From an uncultured Actinomycetes bacterium (lineage in GTDB: Bacteria > Actinomycetota > Acidimicrobiia > Acidimicrobiales > RAAP-2), in contig CAIKUQ010000048.1 of the NCBI GenBank assembly GCA_903830655.1, positions 16,845-80,844 on the forward strand: 64,000 bases of DNA, read 5' to 3'. Both the position numbers and the translations under genes were made by a program. Positions 8,166 through 57,200 of the stretch are shown here, piece after piece. The notes under the pieces are model-generated. The model saw only the letters and a program-made list of their open reading frames with translations. It did no database searches and had not been told where the DNA came from. How positions within the stretch are numbered: the first letter of the stretch is position 1; each line of letters begins with the position of its first letter.

Positions 8166-9313
8166 CCGCTGAAGGAATTCACCGTCCCGCCTACGTCGAA
8201 GTTTCCTCTTCGGCCATGGCGCACAACATCGCAGTGCTTCGCTCCCTCGTACACGACTCGAAGATTTGTGCCGTGGTGAAGGCCAACGGGTACGGGCACG
8301 GCGCAATCGTGGCCGCTCGCGCGGCCCTCGCTGGGGGTGCCGATTCGTTGGCCGTTGCGATCGTGGATGAGGGCATCGAACTCCGAGAAAACGGATTTAC
8401 CACCGAGATTCTCGTTTTGGCGGAGATTGACGGGGCCGCTCTTCCCGTAGCGCTGCAATACGGATTAACCCTGACTATCGGTTCTCTCGCTGGCGCGAAA
8501 GAGACCGTCGGTGCCGCCGCCAAGGTTGGCGGCTCGCACAAGGTGCATCTCAAAGTAGATACGGGCATGGGTCGCATGGGAGTTCAGCCACTTGAGGTGA
8601 CCGAGGCCATCCGGATTCTGCACGCCAGCGAACACATTGAGGTCGAAGGAATTTTTACGCACTTTCCAGTTGCCGATGGGGCCAGTGAGGAAGATCGATC
8701 TTTCACTACCGCTCAGATTGAATTATTCAACGGAATTGTTGAAGAGCTGACCAATGAAAATCTCTGCCCTCCCGTTCGCCACCTGTCTAATAGCGCGGGT
8801 GCGGTCGCGTATCCTGACGCACAGCAATCATTGGTCCGAGCCGGACTCGCACTCTATGGATATGCGCCCAGCGATTGGTTAGTGGGCAAGCTGGCCGCTA
8901 AGGGTGAAAAGCTCCAACCAGTGATGACAATTCGCGCGCAAGTGTCTGCCGTGCGCCGAGTGCCCGCGGGATCTCGCCCCAGTTATGGACGCCGCCGGCC
9001 AGTGACCAAAGAGTCGCTCATCGCCACTGTTCCATTCGGATACGCCGATGGTTTCCCTCGTCGTTTCTTTGAGGCCGGAGCTGAGGTGCTGATTGGCGCA
9101 AAACGCTACCCCCTCGCTGGAATGGTAACGATGGACCAGCTCTTGATCGATTGTGGCGATGATGAAATTCAACGTGGTGATGAAGTCATCTTGATGGGCA
9201 CGCAGGGAAGCGAAACAATCTCCGCTGAAGAATGGGCCCAGCGCCTAGGCACCATCACCTGGGAAGTGATGTGTGGCATTGGCGCCCGCTTGCCTCGAGT
9301 TGCCACCAAGTAA
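8162..9313 (+). CDS. alr: Alanine racemase
   Basis: Alr interconverts L- and D-alanine for peptidoglycan and depends on PLP. The 383-residue protein has the PLP lysine Lys40 in AVVKANGYGHGA, the LKVDTGMGRMG segment, RAGLALYGYAP, and the C-terminal domain segment AGMVTMDQLLID. It starts at GTG within a 4-bp overlap with acpS. The acpS-alr-(udg)-tsaE-tsaB-rimI-tsaD order is common in actinobacteria. Confidence 0.95.
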   Translation: MTAEGIHRPAYVEVSSSAMAHNIAVLRSLVHDSKICAVVKANGYGHGAIVAARAALAGGADSLAVAIVDEGIELRENGFTTEILVLAEIDGAALPVALQYGLTLTIGSLAGAKETVGAAAKVGGSHKVHLKVDTGMGRMGVQPLEVTEAIRILHASEHIEVEGIFTHFPVADGASEEDRSFTTAQIELFNGIVEELTNENLCPPVRHLSNSAGAVAYPDAQQSLVRAGLALYGYAPSDWLVGKLAAKGEKLQPVMTIRAQVSAVRRVPAGSRPSYGRRRPVTKESLIATVPFGYADGFPRRFFEAGAEVLIGAKRYPLAGMVTMDQLLIDCGDDEIQRGDEVILMGTQGSETISAEEWAQRLGTITWEVMCGIGARLPRVATK

Positions 9314-9315
9314 CA

Positions 9316-9858
9316 GTGGATCTCAACGCACTGCTCTCGTGCACCAGGTGCGACCTTTCACAGAACCGACAGCGAGTAGTTGTGGGTTCCGGCCCGAGCC
9401 GTCCAACTCTGCTGGTGGTGGGTGAAGCACCCGGCAAGACCGAAGACGAAGGTGGCGAGCCCTTCATTGGACGTAGTGGACAACTACTTTTTAAATTGAT
9501 TGAAGAAGAGGTGGGGATCACCCGCGCCGATTGTTTCGTAACCAATATCGCTAAGTGTCGCCCTCCGAATAATCGCCCACCCACCGCAAAAGAGTGTGAG
9601 GCGTGTCGACCCTGGTTGCTCGAGCAGCTTGATTCGTTGAGCCCTGACGCGGTCTTGAGCGTGGGCAATACCGCCACCCGACAACTATTTGGAGTCAGTG
9701 AAGGCATAAGCACAATTCATGGGCAACGCTTTGAGTTAAATGGGGTTTCGGGAATTGCGACGTACCACCCGGCAGCGGGTTTACGAAGTCCCAATAGCGT
9801 CATACCCATGATTCGAGAAGATCTCCGCATCTTAAAATCTCAGTTGTCACTCGCATGA
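9316..9858 (+). CDS. Uracil-DNA glycosylase, family 4 (iron-sulfur type)
   Basis: This is a family 4 UDG, which removes uracil arising from cytosine deamination. I place the start at GTG 9316, right after alr, giving 180 residues; the ORF track start at 9232 adds residues from within alr that do not fit the family. Motifs: the Cys pair C9-x2-C12 and a later pair in CRPPNNRPPTAKECEAC, together the 4Fe-4S ligands; motif A GEAPGKTEDEGGEPFIGRSGQLL; and the HPAAGLR loop near the C-terminus. It overlaps tsaE by 4 bp. Confidence 0.92.
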   Translation: MDLNALLSCTRCDLSQNRQRVVVGSGPSRPTLLVVGEAPGKTEDEGGEPFIGRSGQLLFKLIEEEVGITRADCFVTNIAKCRPPNNRPPTAKECEACRPWLLEQLDSLSPDAVLSVGNTATRQLFGVSEGISTIHGQRFELNGVSGIATYHPAAGLRSPNSVIPMIREDLRILKSQLSLA

Positions 9859-10334
9859 CTACGGCCCGTACCTGTTTTAATGACGAGGCCACTCAGAGTG
9901 CGGGGGAGGACTTCGGGAAACTGTTGCGAGCCGGCGACATTATTTTGCTCACCGGTCGCCTCGGAGCCGGCAAGACCACCTTTACCAAGGGAATTGCTCG
10001 GGGATTGGGGGTTACCGAGAGAGTGACCAGTCCAACTTTCACCATGGTTCGTCAGCACCATTGTCATAACCAACAGGGGATCGAAATGCTGCACCATGGG
10101 GACATGTACCGCATTGAAAGCGCGGGGGAGGTCGCCGATCTCGCCCTCGGTGAACTCGTCGAAGAAAATGGAGTTGCCATTGTGGAGTGGGGAGAGTTGG
10201 CCGCGGAAATTTTTGGACCACGGGCAATCTCCATTCATTTCGAGGTTCACGAAGATGAATCCCGTACCCTGAGCGCACATGGCGACTTCGATGAAGACCG
10301 ACGCTCGGAGTTTGCGAAGTGGGCGAGACTATGA
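9855..10334 (+). CDS. tsaE: tRNA t6A synthesis ATPase TsaE
   Basis: TsaE is the ATPase that resets the TsaB-TsaD complex making N6-threonylcarbamoyladenosine at position 37 of ANN-decoding tRNAs. The 159-residue protein has a Walker A loop at residues 34-42 (GRLGAGKTT), a TSPTFTMV switch and the LVEENGVAIVEWGE segment. It overlaps the UDG gene and tsaB by ATGA-type 4-bp overlaps. Its partners tsaB and tsaD follow; tsaC, which makes the threonylcarbamoyl-AMP substrate, is not in the window. Confidence 0.94.
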   Translation: MTTARTCFNDEATQSAGEDFGKLLRAGDIILLTGRLGAGKTTFTKGIARGLGVTERVTSPTFTMVRQHHCHNQQGIEMLHHGDMYRIESAGEVADLALGELVEENGVAIVEWGELAAEIFGPRAISIHFEVHEDESRTLSAHGDFDEDRRSEFAKWARL

Positions 10335-27697: not shown

Positions 27698-28909
27698 ATG
27701 GAATCGCGCCGCCCTGTTTATCGACCGCCCGCCCCGCCGCCGGCGCGTCGTCATCGCCGCAGGGTCTACATACGCCGCCGCATCCTGGTTGGACTGGTGC
27801 TGGGATTTTTTGTCTTTCTCTTGTACTTAGGTGTCTCTCTCGGATTCGCCCTCACAAACCAGGGGCTCGGCGCCTCCTACAGTGCGCGTGCGGCTGAGTG
27901 GGGACGCACTAATGGCCTGGGCTGGGCCGTCACTTGGGTGGAGACCGAGTGGTACAAGCTAAACCCCGCCCCGAAGGGTGGTAAGCCACAGTCCAACGCA
28001 TTCAAAACCAACCCCGACCGCATCAAGATCCCCAAGGGTGTCGTACACACACCTTGGCCTAAGCGCGTGGTCTCTCCCGCGGGCACCTGGCTACCGGGCG
28101 AGGGTGTTTGGCACCCCGTCGGGCGAGTGACCACTAGAGGTGTTCCGGCAGTCTTTGTTACTCACGTGCGAGTCGACAAGATTCACACCAGTCAAGTTGC
28201 GGGTATTGCGTGGATGGATTCCACCTTGCTCCGGGCACAGCTGTATTCGGGCTCATTCATCCCCGGGCCACTTCCCGGCGGCAAGAAGTTTCAATATTCA
28301 GCGCCGATCTCTCCTGCAGATTCCAAGACCATGGTCGCCGCCTTTAACGCCGGGTTCCGAATTCAAGACGGCAATGGCGGCTACTTCACACAGGGCATCA
28401 CTGTAAAGCCCTTACGCAAGGGAGCCGCGTCAATTGTTGTTTACAGAAACGGCGTGATGACCGTGGGAATGTGGGGACGTGACGTGTACATGACGAACCA
28501 AGTCGTCTCCGTTCGTCAAAACCTAGATCTGATTGTTGATCATTCGAAGGCCGTTGCGGGTCTGGATGCAGCCAACTCACTGAAGTGGGGCAAGGTGCTC
28601 GGGGGGTCTTACAACGTGTGGCGGTCAGGAATTGGTGTCACCAGCACCGGAGCCTACGTCTACGTCGGTGGTCCCGCTCTTTCAATCACCTCACTCGCCA
28701 ATCTCTTAGTACTGGCAGGTGCCGTACGGGGCATGGAGCTTGATATCAACACCGACTGGGTTCAGTACGCCTACTACCAGGGCGCCGCGGGTAAGGCTAT
28801 TAATGGAGGCAATGGCACGAACCTATTGACCCAAATGTCGTACTCGCCGTCGCGATTCTTTTCGACGTGGATGAACCGAGACTTCTACGTAATGCAGCTC
28901 GTTAAGTAG
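27698..28909 (+). CDS. Membrane-anchored phosphodiester glycosidase-like protein (NAGPA/DUF2233)
   Basis: The 403-residue protein has a basic, proline-rich cytoplasmic tail, one membrane helix (about residues 30-52) and an extracytoplasmic domain resembling the phosphodiester glycosidase family (GINAGF-like AAFNAGFRIQDGNGGYFTQG, then DLIVDHSKAV and GMELDINTDWVQYAYY). Family members cleave sugar-phosphodiester links, and bacterial ones are often tied to envelope polysaccharides. It faces the DPA operon convergently, its stop abutting that of dprE2. No clear ribosome-binding site precedes the ATG, so a leaderless message is possible. Confidence 0.75.
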   Translation: MESRRPVYRPPAPPPARRHRRRVYIRRRILVGLVLGFFVFLLYLGVSLGFALTNQGLGASYSARAAEWGRTNGLGWAVTWVETEWYKLNPAPKGGKPQSNAFKTNPDRIKIPKGVVHTPWPKRVVSPAGTWLPGEGVWHPVGRVTTRGVPAVFVTHVRVDKIHTSQVAGIAWMDSTLLRAQLYSGSFIPGPLPGGKKFQYSAPISPADSKTMVAAFNAGFRIQDGNGGYFTQGITVKPLRKGAASIVVYRNGVMTVGMWGRDVYMTNQVVSVRQNLDLIVDHSKAVAGLDAANSLKWGKVLGGSYNVWRSGIGVTSTGAYVYVGGPALSITSLANLLVLAGAVRGMELDINTDWVQYAYYQGAAGKAINGGNGTNLLTQMSYSPSRFFSTWMNRDFYVMQLVK

Positions 28910-50338: not shown

Positions 50339-50524
50339 CTACTTTTCCTCGGAATCGGGGCCCTTGGCCTCATCTTTTGCTTGCTTCAATCCTTTTTCGA
50401 ACTCGTTTTTGGCCGAGCCGAGATTGCGCGCAAACTTAGGAATTGCCTTTCCTCCAAATACGAGAACGACAATGACCACGAGAACGATCACTAGGTCAGT
50501 ACTGGCAAATTCACCAAAAATCAT
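50339..50524 (-). CDS. tatA: Sec-independent protein translocase TatA/E
   Basis: The 61-residue protein has the TatA plan: a short N-terminus, one membrane helix (TDLVIVLVVIVVLVF), the FGGKAIPKFARNLG hinge, an amphipathic helix and a charged tail. It forms the pore of the twin-arginine pathway with TatC, absent here. It is 64 bp upstream of ctaC on the same strand. The DoxX-Rieske protein encoded 3.4 kb downstream carries a twin-arginine-like segment that could use it. Confidence 0.92.
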   Translation of the reverse strand: MIFGEFASTDLVIVLVVIVVLVFGGKAIPKFARNLGSAKNEFEKGLKQAKDEAKGPDSEEK

Positions 50525-53838: not shown

Positions 53839-53935
53839 TTGAACCCCCAGAGAGAATTAGTCGCTTCATTTTGTAGATAAATGTTGCTTAAGAGAGCCTA
53901 CTTTTTAGATCTCCCTGCGCCCGACTTCTGCGAGA

Positions 53936-55135
53936 ATGTTTGCTATGTCAACGCCCGCTACTTCTACTCTTCGACGCCTTCCCTTTAACGCCCCCGTGCG
54001 AGCCTGGGCTTTAAGTGAGTGGGCACTACTTCCACTGCGCCTTTTTCTGGGGGTCACTTTCATCTACGGAGGCCTCATGAAGTTGGCTAACCCCAACTTC
54101 TTAAACCCCAAGAGCCCCATCTCCATTCAGCAGTCGCTGGTGGCTTCAATTCGCATTAGCCCAATTCACTCACTGATTACGCCACTGACTCACTTCGCTA
54201 AGCCGCTGGGAGTCTTTCTCGCCTTTGCGGAGCTGGCCGTGGGACTGGGCGTCCTCTTTGGTTTTTGGACTCGTATTGCCGCGATTGGCGGGGCCTTCTT
54301 GTCGCTCAACCTGTTCTTGACGGTTTCATTCCATTCTTCTCCCTACTTCGTTGGATCGGACATTGTCTTTCTCTTTGCTTGGTTGCCATTTATTATTTCG
54401 GGATCGGGATCTCGATTCAGTCTTGACGCATTTATTGCGAATCGAGTGGCAAAAGAGAGAAATCTCCCGGACCCAACGTTGGTGCCGATCGCCTTTTCGA
54501 CGGTGCAAAACATCTGTGGAAACTTTGACAATGGAAAGTGCAAAGTTCAAAACGGTGCTGCCTGTAACGCCGATTTGTGTCCAGTGCTCCTTGGCGCACG
54601 CGCCCCGCGCGTAACTCGCGTCGGTGGCGATTCAATTGATCGTCGCACTCTCGTCACCGGGGGCATCGCAGCAGCTTCGCTTGGTGGGGTGGCATTGGTG
54701 CTCGGTGGAGCGACCGCCGACATAGGTCGAATGATTGGTGGTGCTAAGGCACCAGTGACTGGCCCTGCACTGGGCACCACTACTACTAGTGGGACTGGCT
54801 CAACTACCACGACGGCGGCGGGAGCTGCCAAAGGGACCAAGTTGGGAGCAGCGGTACAAGTACCCGAGGGCCAAGCGGCCACCTTTACGATTCCCGCCAA
54901 TGGAGACACCGGCATTGTGCTGCACAAGGGCGGCAAATTCTTGGCCTATGACGCGATCTGTCCCCACGCGGGATGTCCAGTCGGTTACTCGAGTTCAGCC
55001 AATGAATTTCAGTGCCCCTGCCACGGTTCAACTTTTAATGTTGAGACTGGAGCGGTTTTGGCTGGGCCGGCCCCTCGTGGACTAACGGCCTTGAAGGTTG
55101 TTGAAGGCAGTGACGGTAACCTCTACCTACAGTGA
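53936..55135 (+). CDS. DoxX-Rieske fusion protein with internal twin-arginine segment
   Basis: A 399-residue protein with three parts. Residues 30-160 form a DoxX domain of four membrane helices (PLRLFLGVTFIYGGLMKLANP). A short linker follows with four evenly spaced cysteines (C194, C202, C210, C215). An RR pair (236-237, DRRTLVTGG) leads into a hydrophobic helix (241-260), then a Thr/Gly/Ser linker and a Rieske domain with CPHAGC (342-347) and CPCHGS (360-365). The layout suggests Sec insertion of DoxX and Tat export of the folded Rieske cluster, as known for actinobacterial QcrA. An ATG at 53945 is an alternative start. The response-regulator gene overlaps its end by 4 bp. Confidence 0.88.
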   Translation: MFAMSTPATSTLRRLPFNAPVRAWALSEWALLPLRLFLGVTFIYGGLMKLANPNFLNPKSPISIQQSLVASIRISPIHSLITPLTHFAKPLGVFLAFAELAVGLGVLFGFWTRIAAIGGAFLSLNLFLTVSFHSSPYFVGSDIVFLFAWLPFIISGSGSRFSLDAFIANRVAKERNLPDPTLVPIAFSTVQNICGNFDNGKCKVQNGAACNADLCPVLLGARAPRVTRVGGDSIDRRTLVTGGIAAASLGGVALVLGGATADIGRMIGGAKAPVTGPALGTTTTSGTGSTTTTAAGAAKGTKLGAAVQVPEGQAATFTIPANGDTGIVLHKGGKFLAYDAICPHAGCPVGYSSSANEFQCPCHGSTFNVETGAVLAGPAPRGLTALKVVEGSDGNLYLQ

Positions 55136-55818
55136 GCACTACACAACGTCGAGCCCTGGTTGTTGAAGACGACCACGCCTTAGCCCAGACGATTGCTGAA
55201 CTGCTGAATAGTGAAGGTTTTATTTCCGAGACCCAACACGACGGGGACGCTGGCTACCACGCGGCAATTACGGGTGCTTACGACGTCATAATTCTTGATG
55301 TCATGTTGCCTAAGCGAAATGGATTCAAGGTGTGCGCGGATATCCGCGATGTTGGAATCAACACCCCACTTTTGATGCTCACCGCTAAGGACGGGGACCT
55401 CGACGAGATTGAGGGGCTCGAAGCCGGTGCGGATGATTTTCTGCGTAAACCCTTCGAACGAGCAAAGCTCATGGCTCACATCAACGCGTTAATTCGCCGT
55501 TACGATCGCCACTCGCGAAATCAGTTCAGTGTTGGTGAACTCCAGGTTGACTCCGCTCAACGAGCGGCGTCGTTAAATGGCGTAGTGCTGAGCCTTACCC
55601 CGAGAGAATTTTCGCTCTTGGAATTTTTGGTTTCGCGACCTGGCGAAACTATGGCTAAGAAAGAAATCCTTCACGCCGTGTGGGGAGAGGACTTTGACGG
55701 GGACCCTAATATCATCGAAGTGTACGTTGGATACCTTCGACGAAAAATTGATCAACCTGGTCAAGAGTCCCTGATTCAAACAGTTCGTGGGATTGGCTAC
55801 AACATTAGAAAGCCCTAA
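55132..55818 (+). CDS. OmpR/PhoB-family response regulator
   Basis: The 228-residue regulator has a receiver domain (acidic pocket VEDDHA, phospho-acceptor Asp56 in VIILDVMLPKRNG, Lys in FLRKPF) and a winged-helix DNA-binding domain (LTPREFSLLEFLVSRPGETMAKKEIL, then EVYVGYLRRKID and RGIGYNIR). It starts at GTG overlapping the DoxX-Rieske stop by 4 bp and overlaps the kinase gene by one base, so the three are one translational unit. Its targets are unknown; autoregulation of the unit is likely in this family. Confidence 0.94.
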   Translation: MSTTQRRALVVEDDHALAQTIAELLNSEGFISETQHDGDAGYHAAITGAYDVIILDVMLPKRNGFKVCADIRDVGINTPLLMLTAKDGDLDEIEGLEAGADDFLRKPFERAKLMAHINALIRRYDRHSRNQFSVGELQVDSAQRAASLNGVVLSLTPREFSLLEFLVSRPGETMAKKEILHAVWGEDFDGDPNIIEVYVGYLRRKIDQPGQESLIQTVRGIGYNIRKP

Positions 55819-57200
55819 TGACGCATCAACGCAGACTCTCTGTTAGAGCACGGCTTACTATTTCATTCGTGGTCGCCGTAGCGGCAATTTTGATTGTTGC
55901 GAGTCTTGGCCTGTTTTACGTAGTGCACCGGTCGCTCTCCGCGCAGGCCCAGAGTCAAGTGGACGCGGCACTGAGTGCAGCTCAATCGAAGTTGACGCTT
56001 AATTCGAATCCAAATTCTTCAGTTCGCGTGCTGCAGCCCAATGGCTACGTTGTCTTGCAACTCACCAATTCGACCGGCACCAAAGTGTGGGCGGCCACCT
56101 CGACAATTTCGAATGCTCCCGTACTCGCTCGCACCTCACTTAACTTTGCCTCTCCTAATGGATTGGTCCCCAAGATCGTTTCGGTTTCTGGCATGGGCGG
56201 GATTACCGACCAATTGAGTTTTCCAACGGTGGTCGCAATCGGAACCGATAAGGGCCCCGGCCTGTTGTTTGGCTTCGTCTACGGGGATGTCATCACCCAC
56301 AGTGATCGTCTTTTGCTCGCGGGTATTTTGGCTTCGGCTCCACTTCTCCTGTTCTTGATGAGCGGCATGTTTTGGTTAGGTATTGGCCGGGCCCTAGCGC
56401 CGGTGGGCTCAATTCGTCGTCGAGCCGACGCTATTGCGTCCGCCAAACTCGGAGAGCGCATCGAAGTCACTCCGGGACGAGATGAGATTGCGCTCATGGC
56501 CACGACAGTCAATGAAATGCTCGACCGACTCGAGGCATCGGCCACTTCACAAAAAGAGTTCATCTCCAACGCTTCGCACGAGTTACGGAGCCCCTTGACC
56601 ACGCTCCTCGCCACCCTCGAACGAGCCCAGGCCAATCCGGAGAAAGAAGACTGGGTGGTCACCTCTGAACGACTGTTGCGGGAAAGTCGACGTCTCGAGG
56701 CAACTATTAACGATCTTTTCTGGTTAGCTAAGAACGACGAACGTCACCAACTAGAAAATCTGACTGATGTAGATCTCGATGACATTTTGTATGACGAAGC
56801 TGCGCGTACCAAATCACTGAGCAAACTTCGAGTGGACGTCAGCCACGTCCAGCCGGCCCGGGTGCGCGGAAACGCTTCGATGCTGAATCGAATGGTCCGC
56901 AACGTGGTGGACAACGCAATGCGGCATGCCACGAGTGATTTGACTCTTGCGTGTTACTACGAAGGCGACGAAGCGGTGGTTTTGATAAACAATGATGGCG
57001 CCGCTGTTGATGTGGCAACGAGTGACGAGTTCTTCATGCGATTTATTCGAGCTGACGAAGCACGGGCGCGTGATAGCGGAGGAACGGGACTCGGGCTTTC
57101 TATTGTTCAAGAAATCTGTCAGTTGCACGGTGGCCACGCGAGATTCATTGAATCCCCAGTTGGTTCGACGATTGAATTACGCATCCGGCGTCAGAGCTAG
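55818..57200 (+). CDS. Membrane sensor histidine kinase
   Basis: The 460-residue kinase has an N-terminal helix (about 11-35), an extracytoplasmic sensor region of some 120 residues, a second helix (about 155-180), a HAMP domain, the phospho-acceptor H-box SNASHELRSPLTTLLATLERAQ, the N-box NVVDNAMRHA and the G-box GGTGLGLSIVQEI. It pairs with the regulator upstream. The signal is unknown; coupling to a DoxX-Rieske protein suggests redox, thiol or envelope stress. Its stop overlaps that of convergent ogt by 4 bp. Confidence 0.94.
   Translation: MTHQRRLSVRARLTISFVVAVAAILIVASLGLFYVVHRSLSAQAQSQVDAALSAAQSKLTLNSNPNSSVRVLQPNGYVVLQLTNSTGTKVWAATSTISNAPVLARTSLNFASPNGLVPKIVSVSGMGGITDQLSFPTVVAIGTDKGPGLLFGFVYGDVITHSDRLLLAGILASAPLLLFLMSGMFWLGIGRALAPVGSIRRRADAIASAKLGERIEVTPGRDEIALMATTVNEMLDRLEASATSQKEFISNASHELRSPLTTLLATLERAQANPEKEDWVVTSERLLRESRRLEATINDLFWLAKNDERHQLENLTDVDLDDILYDEAARTKSLSKLRVDVSHVQPARVRGNASMLNRMVRNVVDNAMRHATSDLTLACYYEGDEAVVLINNDGAAVDVATSDEFFMRFIRADEARARDSGGTGLGLSIVQEICQLHGGHARFIESPVGSTIELRIRRQS

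Follow-up and report, generated by a model that had tools for sequence, protein, structure and literature searches.

The 64,000-nucleotide stretch of DNA analysed here (the window), from an uncultured Actinomycetes bacterium, contains a gene at 53936..55135 on the forward strand that joins a DoxX membrane domain and a Rieske iron-sulfur domain in one chain, followed directly by the genes of a response regulator and a histidine kinase. The encoded protein is probably a five-helix Rieske electron carrier of the cell envelope, assembled by the Sec and twin-arginine translocation (Tat) pathways. The fuller proposal, that this envelope electron-transfer fusion is both Sec/Tat-assembled and autoregulated by a dedicated OmpR-type system, has in our estimation an even chance of being correct. 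The Rieske, DoxX and OmpR/EnvZ parts are each known singly and their combination is new. A first-pass annotation, made by a model from the sequence without database searches, had likewise known of no system of this composition, and a literature search, with preprints and most subscription journals outside its coverage, returned no description of a DoxX-Rieske protein.

The architecture of the fusion and its conservation, the layout of the operon, the recurring linkage to two-component genes and an operator-like repeat, all described below, are computed results, from which we infer the topology in vivo, the use of Tat, binding by the regulator, and the electron donor and acceptor. In the proposed scheme, four DoxX helices inserted by Sec would form a membrane module, and the fifth helix, preceded by a twin arginine, would be passed to Tat, placing a folded bc-type Rieske domain outside the membrane. 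The DoxX part would take electrons from a lipid-soluble or small-molecule donor, most likely a quinol and in second place a thiol or sulfur compound, and an extracytoplasmic carrier or oxidase would receive them from the Rieske cluster. The kinase would sense an envelope signal that drives autoregulation of the operon, with the regulator binding an 11-bp direct repeat upstream.

Domain architecture and predicted membrane assembly

The four-helix membrane domain (residues 30-174; 54023..54457; this and the following features are on the forward strand unless noted) is recognized by Pfam both as DoxX (PF07681, E 7e-11, 43 bits against a cut-off of 23.6) and as DoxD (PF04173, E 4e-11, 43.7 bits against 22.7). 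The hydropathy profile delineates the four DoxX helices and a fifth transmembrane helix (residues 239-257; 54650..54706), predicted to be Tat-dependent, ahead of the Rieske domain. The predicted cytoplasmic loop between the fourth and fifth helices carries a CX7CX7CX4C segment (C194, C202, C210 and C215; residues 194-215; 54515..54580), hereafter the Cys4 segment, and a twin-arginine motif, DRRTLVTGG (residues 235-243; 54638..54664), leads into the fifth helix. The Rieske [2Fe-2S] domain, predicted to be extracytoplasmic, occupies residues 304-399 (54845..55132) and matches PF00355 over residues 304-383 with an E value of 7e-14, exceeding the curated cut-off. The first-pass annotation had read all of these elements in a single chain, and Pfam, hydropathy and the sequence bear it out. 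Its length of 399 residues applies to the open reading frame as read, whereas the probable true start at 53945 gives 396 residues.

The Rieske motif is C342-P-H344-A-G-C347 ... C360-P-C362-H363-G-S365 (residues 342-365) and includes both extra disulfide cysteines. Among 32 aligned fusions, C342, H344, C347, C360, C362 and H363 are invariant, the serine of the CHGS sequence is retained, and the position of the bc1 tyrosine is phenylalanine throughout (F367 in the window protein). Because of these invariant ligands and disulfide cysteines, the retained serine and the constant phenylalanine, the domain is assigned to the bc type rather than the dioxygenase-ferredoxin type. The CHGS serine combined with phenylalanine at the tyrosine position suggests a fairly high, somewhat lowered redox potential. 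The closest solved structures by sequence are b6f, bc and arsenite-oxidase Rieske proteins, and a Foldseek fold search, confined to the Rieske domain, concurs on the domain type. In the AlphaFold (AF2) model, computed from a four-sequence alignment, the predicted local distance difference test score (pLDDT) is ~90 for residues 301-399.

Hydropathy and the distribution of positive charges predict a cytoplasmic N-terminus, helices 1-4 in the DoxX domain, a cytoplasmic Cys4 loop, the fifth helix after the twin arginine, and an external Rieske domain. An even number of helices, a twin-arginine motif and a single following helix are the hallmarks of dual Sec/Tat substrates, and the fusion has all three. 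The twin arginine is present in 68/68 fusions examined, 66 of which have a lysine or arginine after the fifth helix. Dual substrates listed in the literature are Rieske proteins with three transmembrane helices, a molybdenum protein and a polyferredoxin with five, and YkuE-like proteins; DoxX is unmentioned there (PMC5449189). As in the Sco3746 and polyferredoxin families (Tooke et al. 2017, PMC5449189), five helices, a twin arginine before the fifth and an exported cofactor domain are found in the fusion; its exported domain is a Rieske domain, not a molybdenum or polyferredoxin one. Since the predicted N-in topology, the invariant twin arginine and the five helices fit this published layout, the reading as a dual Sec/Tat substrate is supported. 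A tatC gene is present in the window genome. The window also encodes, at 50342-50524 on the reverse strand, a 61-residue TatA-type protein (PF02416) in a conserved block between coxB and azlC, ~3.4 kb from the fusion.

Distribution of the fusion and recurrence of two-component genes

The distribution of the fusion was surveyed by scans of the genus, order and phylum and, beyond the phylum, by one peptide-pattern scan. Nearly all genomes of the window's genus carry it. The order-wide scan located it in families f21, f22, f31, f32, f45, f47 and f61 (f numbers are our handles for families) and in two additional genera of f1, the family of the window, and the phylum scan located it in f73 and f107, both of another actinobacterial class. 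Named relatives in the peptide-pattern scan were uncultured actinobacteria and an Acidimicrobiaceae metagenome-assembled genome, which makes an acidimicrobial origin of the window probable. The architecture, whose conservation the first-pass annotation had proposed as a check, thus recurs across the genus and in further families of two actinobacterial classes, with DoxX, DoxD and Rieske all matched in each of the 32 aligned fusions. In f73 and f107 the twin-arginine motif is of the classical GRREFLRGG type. The Cys4 segment is variable, being present in most of the window's genus, f21, f32, most of f45 and part of f47, and absent from the fusions of f22, f31, f61, f73 and f107; as judged from this distribution, it is an optional, dispensable part of the fusion. 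Domain trees leave one versus two origins unsettled, with the f73 and f107 Rieske domains grouping apart from the acidimicrobial ones. The plasmid collection yielded no match spanning most of the fusion. A close stand-alone DoxX occurs in f84, a family of large-genome actinobacteria. In Streptomyces-like genomes (L158, 6928-8568, reverse strand) a DoxX domain lies inside a protein of ~550 residues, the remainder of which has no assignment, in addition to a stand-alone DoxX.

Two-component genes recur beside the fusion as well. At 34 fusion loci outside f1, 15 response regulators lie ≤2.5 kb from a fusion (in 150 kb, where 1.3 would be expected), versus 2 in the 228 kb farther out. By family, a regulator is near the fusion in f73 (6/6), f107 (2/3), f22 (1/1), f47 (2/3), f31 (2/4) and f45 (2/7), so that pairs accompany homologues in six families outside f1, as the first-pass annotation had suggested checking, and they do so in rearranged contexts. 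The pair is on the same strand and downstream of the fusion in f1, on the same strand and upstream in L117, divergent in f73, f107, L099, L100, L123 and L046, and tail to tail with the fusion in L095 and L115. Coupling between fusion and two-component genes is therefore recurrent, given the excess over expectation, yet not obligatory, given three families with no pair beside the fusion.

Searches with profiles of the genus kinase and regulator returned the fusion-adjacent pair as the clear best match in G127 only; in G081, G153, G057 and G042 the best kinase match lies elsewhere, away from the fusion. Orthology of the fusion-adjacent pairs across families was mostly rejected on these grounds. 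Because the pairs are mostly not orthologous, repeated independent association appears more likely than one inherited operon. By contrast, the pair might adjoin the fusion by chance, merely through genus-wide synteny of the coxAB-pntAB block. This block (coxAB-(tatA)-azlC-ECH-GH1-VTT-fusion-regulator-kinase-...-ogt-pntAB) is syntenic throughout the genus, and orthologues of the pair occur near pntAB or VTT genes without a fusion in other families. The linkage in six other families, in differing arrangements and far above the expected count, and the 11-bp repeats that largely track the presence of the pair argue against chance, which is the least probable of the explanations considered.

One genus member (L060, 8085-8549, reverse strand) encodes DoxX only, as a protein of 154 residues; the Rieske and Cys4 parts have been lost and the regulator and kinase genes still adjoin. 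Small secreted proteins ending in NVDHQF.G.E are encoded beside kinase and regulator genes in two families (L046, 12189-12515; L165, 7227-7529) and are possible partners of the kinases.

Operon start and the upstream direct repeat

The response regulator gene (55132..55818) starts at a GTG that overlaps the stop of the fusion by 4 nt, and its TAA overlaps the ATG of the kinase gene (55818..57200) by 1 nt, confirming in sequence the two overlaps reported in the first pass. The domains are those of OmpR/EnvZ-type systems. The regulator, of the OmpR/PhoB type, has a receiver (Response_reg) and a winged-helix domain (Trans_reg_C), and the membrane kinase has two transmembrane helices by hydropathy and HAMP, HisKA and HATPase domains by Pfam. 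The sensor region of the kinase (~128 residues, extracytoplasmic) has no cysteine and no recognised cofactor domain. Compared with OmpR/PhoB-EnvZ systems, the pair apparently serves only its own operon, whose first gene is the redox fusion.

In an alignment of three close species, the second ATG (53945) is the start codon of the close orthologues. A -10-like promoter element, TTCTGCGAGAATG (53926..53938; genus consensus CTGTGGCAnnATGG), recovered as an intergenic motif and in the same alignment, is conserved just before this codon. The real start of the fusion is therefore probably 53945, and the spacing of the element possibly points to a leaderless transcript from 53945 or nearby. The motif search was confined to the intergenic region that separates the fusion from the divergent VTT gene; an initial hit was rejected as the coding start of the VTT gene. 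The motif CTGTGGCAnnATGG scored 11.5 bits, compared with 7.3-7.7 for the best motif in shuffled sequence, and a second motif, ATAAATnTTnnnTAAGAG, scored 11.0 bits, compared with 7.0-7.4.

The second motif is a genus-level 11-bp direct repeat with two TAA half-sites. Its copy in the window, ATAAATGTTGCTTAAGAG (53877..53894, half-sites 11 bp apart), is by sequence alone a probable, putative site of the adjacent regulator. Of 28 genus loci with the pair, 17 carry the repeat, compared with a mean of 0.28 and a maximum of 2 over 500 shuffles; shuffle figures, here and below, are not strict probabilities because the sequences are related. A spacing of 11 accounts for 16 loci, and any other spacing from 7 to 16 for one locus at most. 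Of ten genomes scanned, five have an exact match, a single one per genome and always at the fusion promoter; in the window genome (1.4 Mb) the repeat at 53877..53894 is the sole exact match. Matches with two mismatches elsewhere were set aside as resembling chance, some lying within open frames, with no shared target and a similar reversed-pattern control in several genomes. Four pair-less genus members lack the repeat, and pair-less L052 retains it. The divergent region shared by f73 and f107 contains tandem 11-bp repeats with different cores; there, the signal over 13 lags peaks at lag 11, with a value reached in 0/300 shuffles, and pair-less groups show no such peak. The ArcA and PhoB boxes also have 11-bp spacing (PMC3798270), a likeness to OmpR/PhoB systems that here is one of sequence only. 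The window repeat is centred ~59 bp ahead of 53945, which would be a usual activator position. Control of the fusion operon by the adjacent regulator is suggested by the operator-like repeat upstream, its unique exact matches, and the extent to which the repeats track the pair.

The fusion might instead be the redox input subunit of the kinase, reading the quinone or thiol state and signalling through the membrane. DoxX-Rieske would then be the input of a new three-component redox-sensing module that recruited different pairs several times and mainly controls its own operon. This would agree with the recurrent linkage to non-orthologous pairs, the fusion promoter as the sole site of an exact operator match in five genomes, the kinase sensor region devoid of cysteine or recognised cofactor domain, and L060, in which the DoxX part alone is still linked to the pair. 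However, fusions persist without an adjoining pair (f21, f32, f61, L050, L053, L127), contact between fusion and kinase is purely putative, and L060 kept its pair after the Rieske loss, which implies that the linkage does not depend on the cluster. Both the sensor role and the three-component module are thus considered quite unlikely.

Redox partners and comparison with known systems

The immediate neighbours of the fusion in the window are, by Pfam, VTT, the response regulator, the histidine kinase and ogt. Respiratory genes nearby are coxAB and pntAB in the window, coxAB in L046, and a cupredoxin and cytochrome b in L147. These respiratory neighbours would favour quinol as the donor; a sulfur donor would be favoured by an operon in f73 and by mycobacterial DoxX.

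DoxD and mycobacterial DoxX are thought to handle thiosulfate or thiol. If the DoxX part of the fusion did so, with the Rieske domain carrying the electrons off, the protein would belong to sulfur or thiol chemistry, an alternative that is unlikely although a real possibility. It would fit the DoxD match, the predicted cytoplasmic Cys4 segment in many members, the f73 fusions just upstream of SelD, JAB (Mec-like), ThiF and ThiS (CysO-like) genes with a cysteine synthase nearby, and the complex that M. tuberculosis DoxX forms with SodA and SseA (PMC6930017). Against it, sulfur genes are seen in f73 only and the window neighbourhood is respiratory, the f73 fusions themselves lack the Cys4 segment, and a Pfam scan of the neighbours shows neither DoxA nor rhodanese. 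In L145 and L150 (f73) the fusion heads the row SelD, Prok-JAB, ThiF and ThiS, which resembles the actinobacterial CysO/Mec cysteine route.

The DoxD/DoxX membrane domain is shared with thiosulfate:quinone oxidoreductase; the fusion differs in carrying a Rieske domain and in having no DoxA seen beside it, and the model for the DoxD subunit gives 27.5 bits against a cut-off of 300. The model for HvfX, the DoxX protein of copper-binding ribosomally synthesized and post-translationally modified peptide systems, gives 17.6 bits against 80. Like M. tuberculosis DoxX (Rv3005c), the fusion is a DoxX-domain integral membrane protein of an actinobacterium, but it has a fused Rieske domain, a linked two-component pair, and no SodA or SseA neighbour seen.

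Near the fusion in L095, L096, L097, L099 and L117 (f31, f45, f47), a four-helix protein with conserved histidines recurs (c52); it is unmatched in Pfam and may be a b-type cytochrome. Phosphodiester-glycosidase-like proteins (c23), with a match to NAGPA in L095, are repeatedly encoded near the fusion (L095, L099, L100 and L117); one is encoded in the window at 27698-28909, and such a protein also adjoins orthologues of the window's two-component pair. In L046 (f22), the fusion is directly preceded by the gene of a YNCE-like beta-propeller, near which is a second small Rieske frame (8364-9842 and 9677-9922), with coxAB a few kb off.

A variant bc1-complex Rieske subunit working with a cytochrome b is very unlikely. 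The bc-type Rieske motif, c52 beside fusions in f31, f45 and f47, and the cytochrome b near the fusion in L147 would accord with it. Actinobacterial QcrA, the bc1 Rieske subunit with three helices that uses Sec and Tat, also has a C-terminal extracytoplasmic bc-type Rieske domain behind an even set of Sec helices, a twin arginine and a last helix. The fusion differs from QcrA in its four DoxX helices instead of two, in phenylalanine for the bc1 tyrosine, in its own regulatory pair and in its location outside a qcrCAB operon, with no qcrB or qcrC neighbours at the locus. The NCBIfam QcrA model gives 52 bits against a cut-off of 275, and no cytochrome b adjoins the fusion in the window by Pfam. 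The window genome encodes a separate QcrA-like Rieske protein on another contig, so that a role of the fusion as the bc1 Rieske subunit is improbable.

Several observations weigh against the preferred proposal of a Sec/Tat-assembled, autoregulated electron carrier. On a crude scale the hydrophobicity of the fifth helix is no lower than that of the DoxX helices, unlike in published Sec/Tat substrates. The DoxX part of the AF2 model is unreliable (pLDDT mostly <55), and within that limit no quinone site was identified in the fusion. No recognisable repeat is present at 11 of the 28 genus loci with the pair. A pair adjoins the fusion at 0/10 loci of f21, f32 and f61, and is missing beside it in a few genus members (L050, L053, L116, L127, L052). 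Few of the fusion-adjacent pairs in other families are orthologous to that of the window, and orthologues of the latter are located elsewhere without a fusion. The f73 downstream operon points to sulfur rather than respiration. The first-pass interpretation is accordingly supported in part. Insertion by Sec and Tat with the Rieske domain outside agrees with the predicted topology, the conserved twin arginine and the five helices, and less well with the hydrophobicity of the fifth helix on a crude scale. Expression set by the adjacent sensor and a functional link to the pair both gain from the recurrent linkage, the former also from the operator-like repeat; against these stand the absence of the pair beside some fusions and, for the functional link, the lack of orthology between families.

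Two well-known redox families gain, in the fusion, an architecture that is widespread and apparently undescribed, and the five-helix proteins assembled jointly by Sec and Tat gain another candidate class. With its linkage to different two-component systems and the operator-like repeat, the sensing and adjustment of envelope redox state in these mostly uncultured actinobacteria become directly testable. Few functions of the DoxX domain are firmly established, and the electron paramagnetic resonance signal of the Rieske cluster gives it a built-in spectroscopic reporter.

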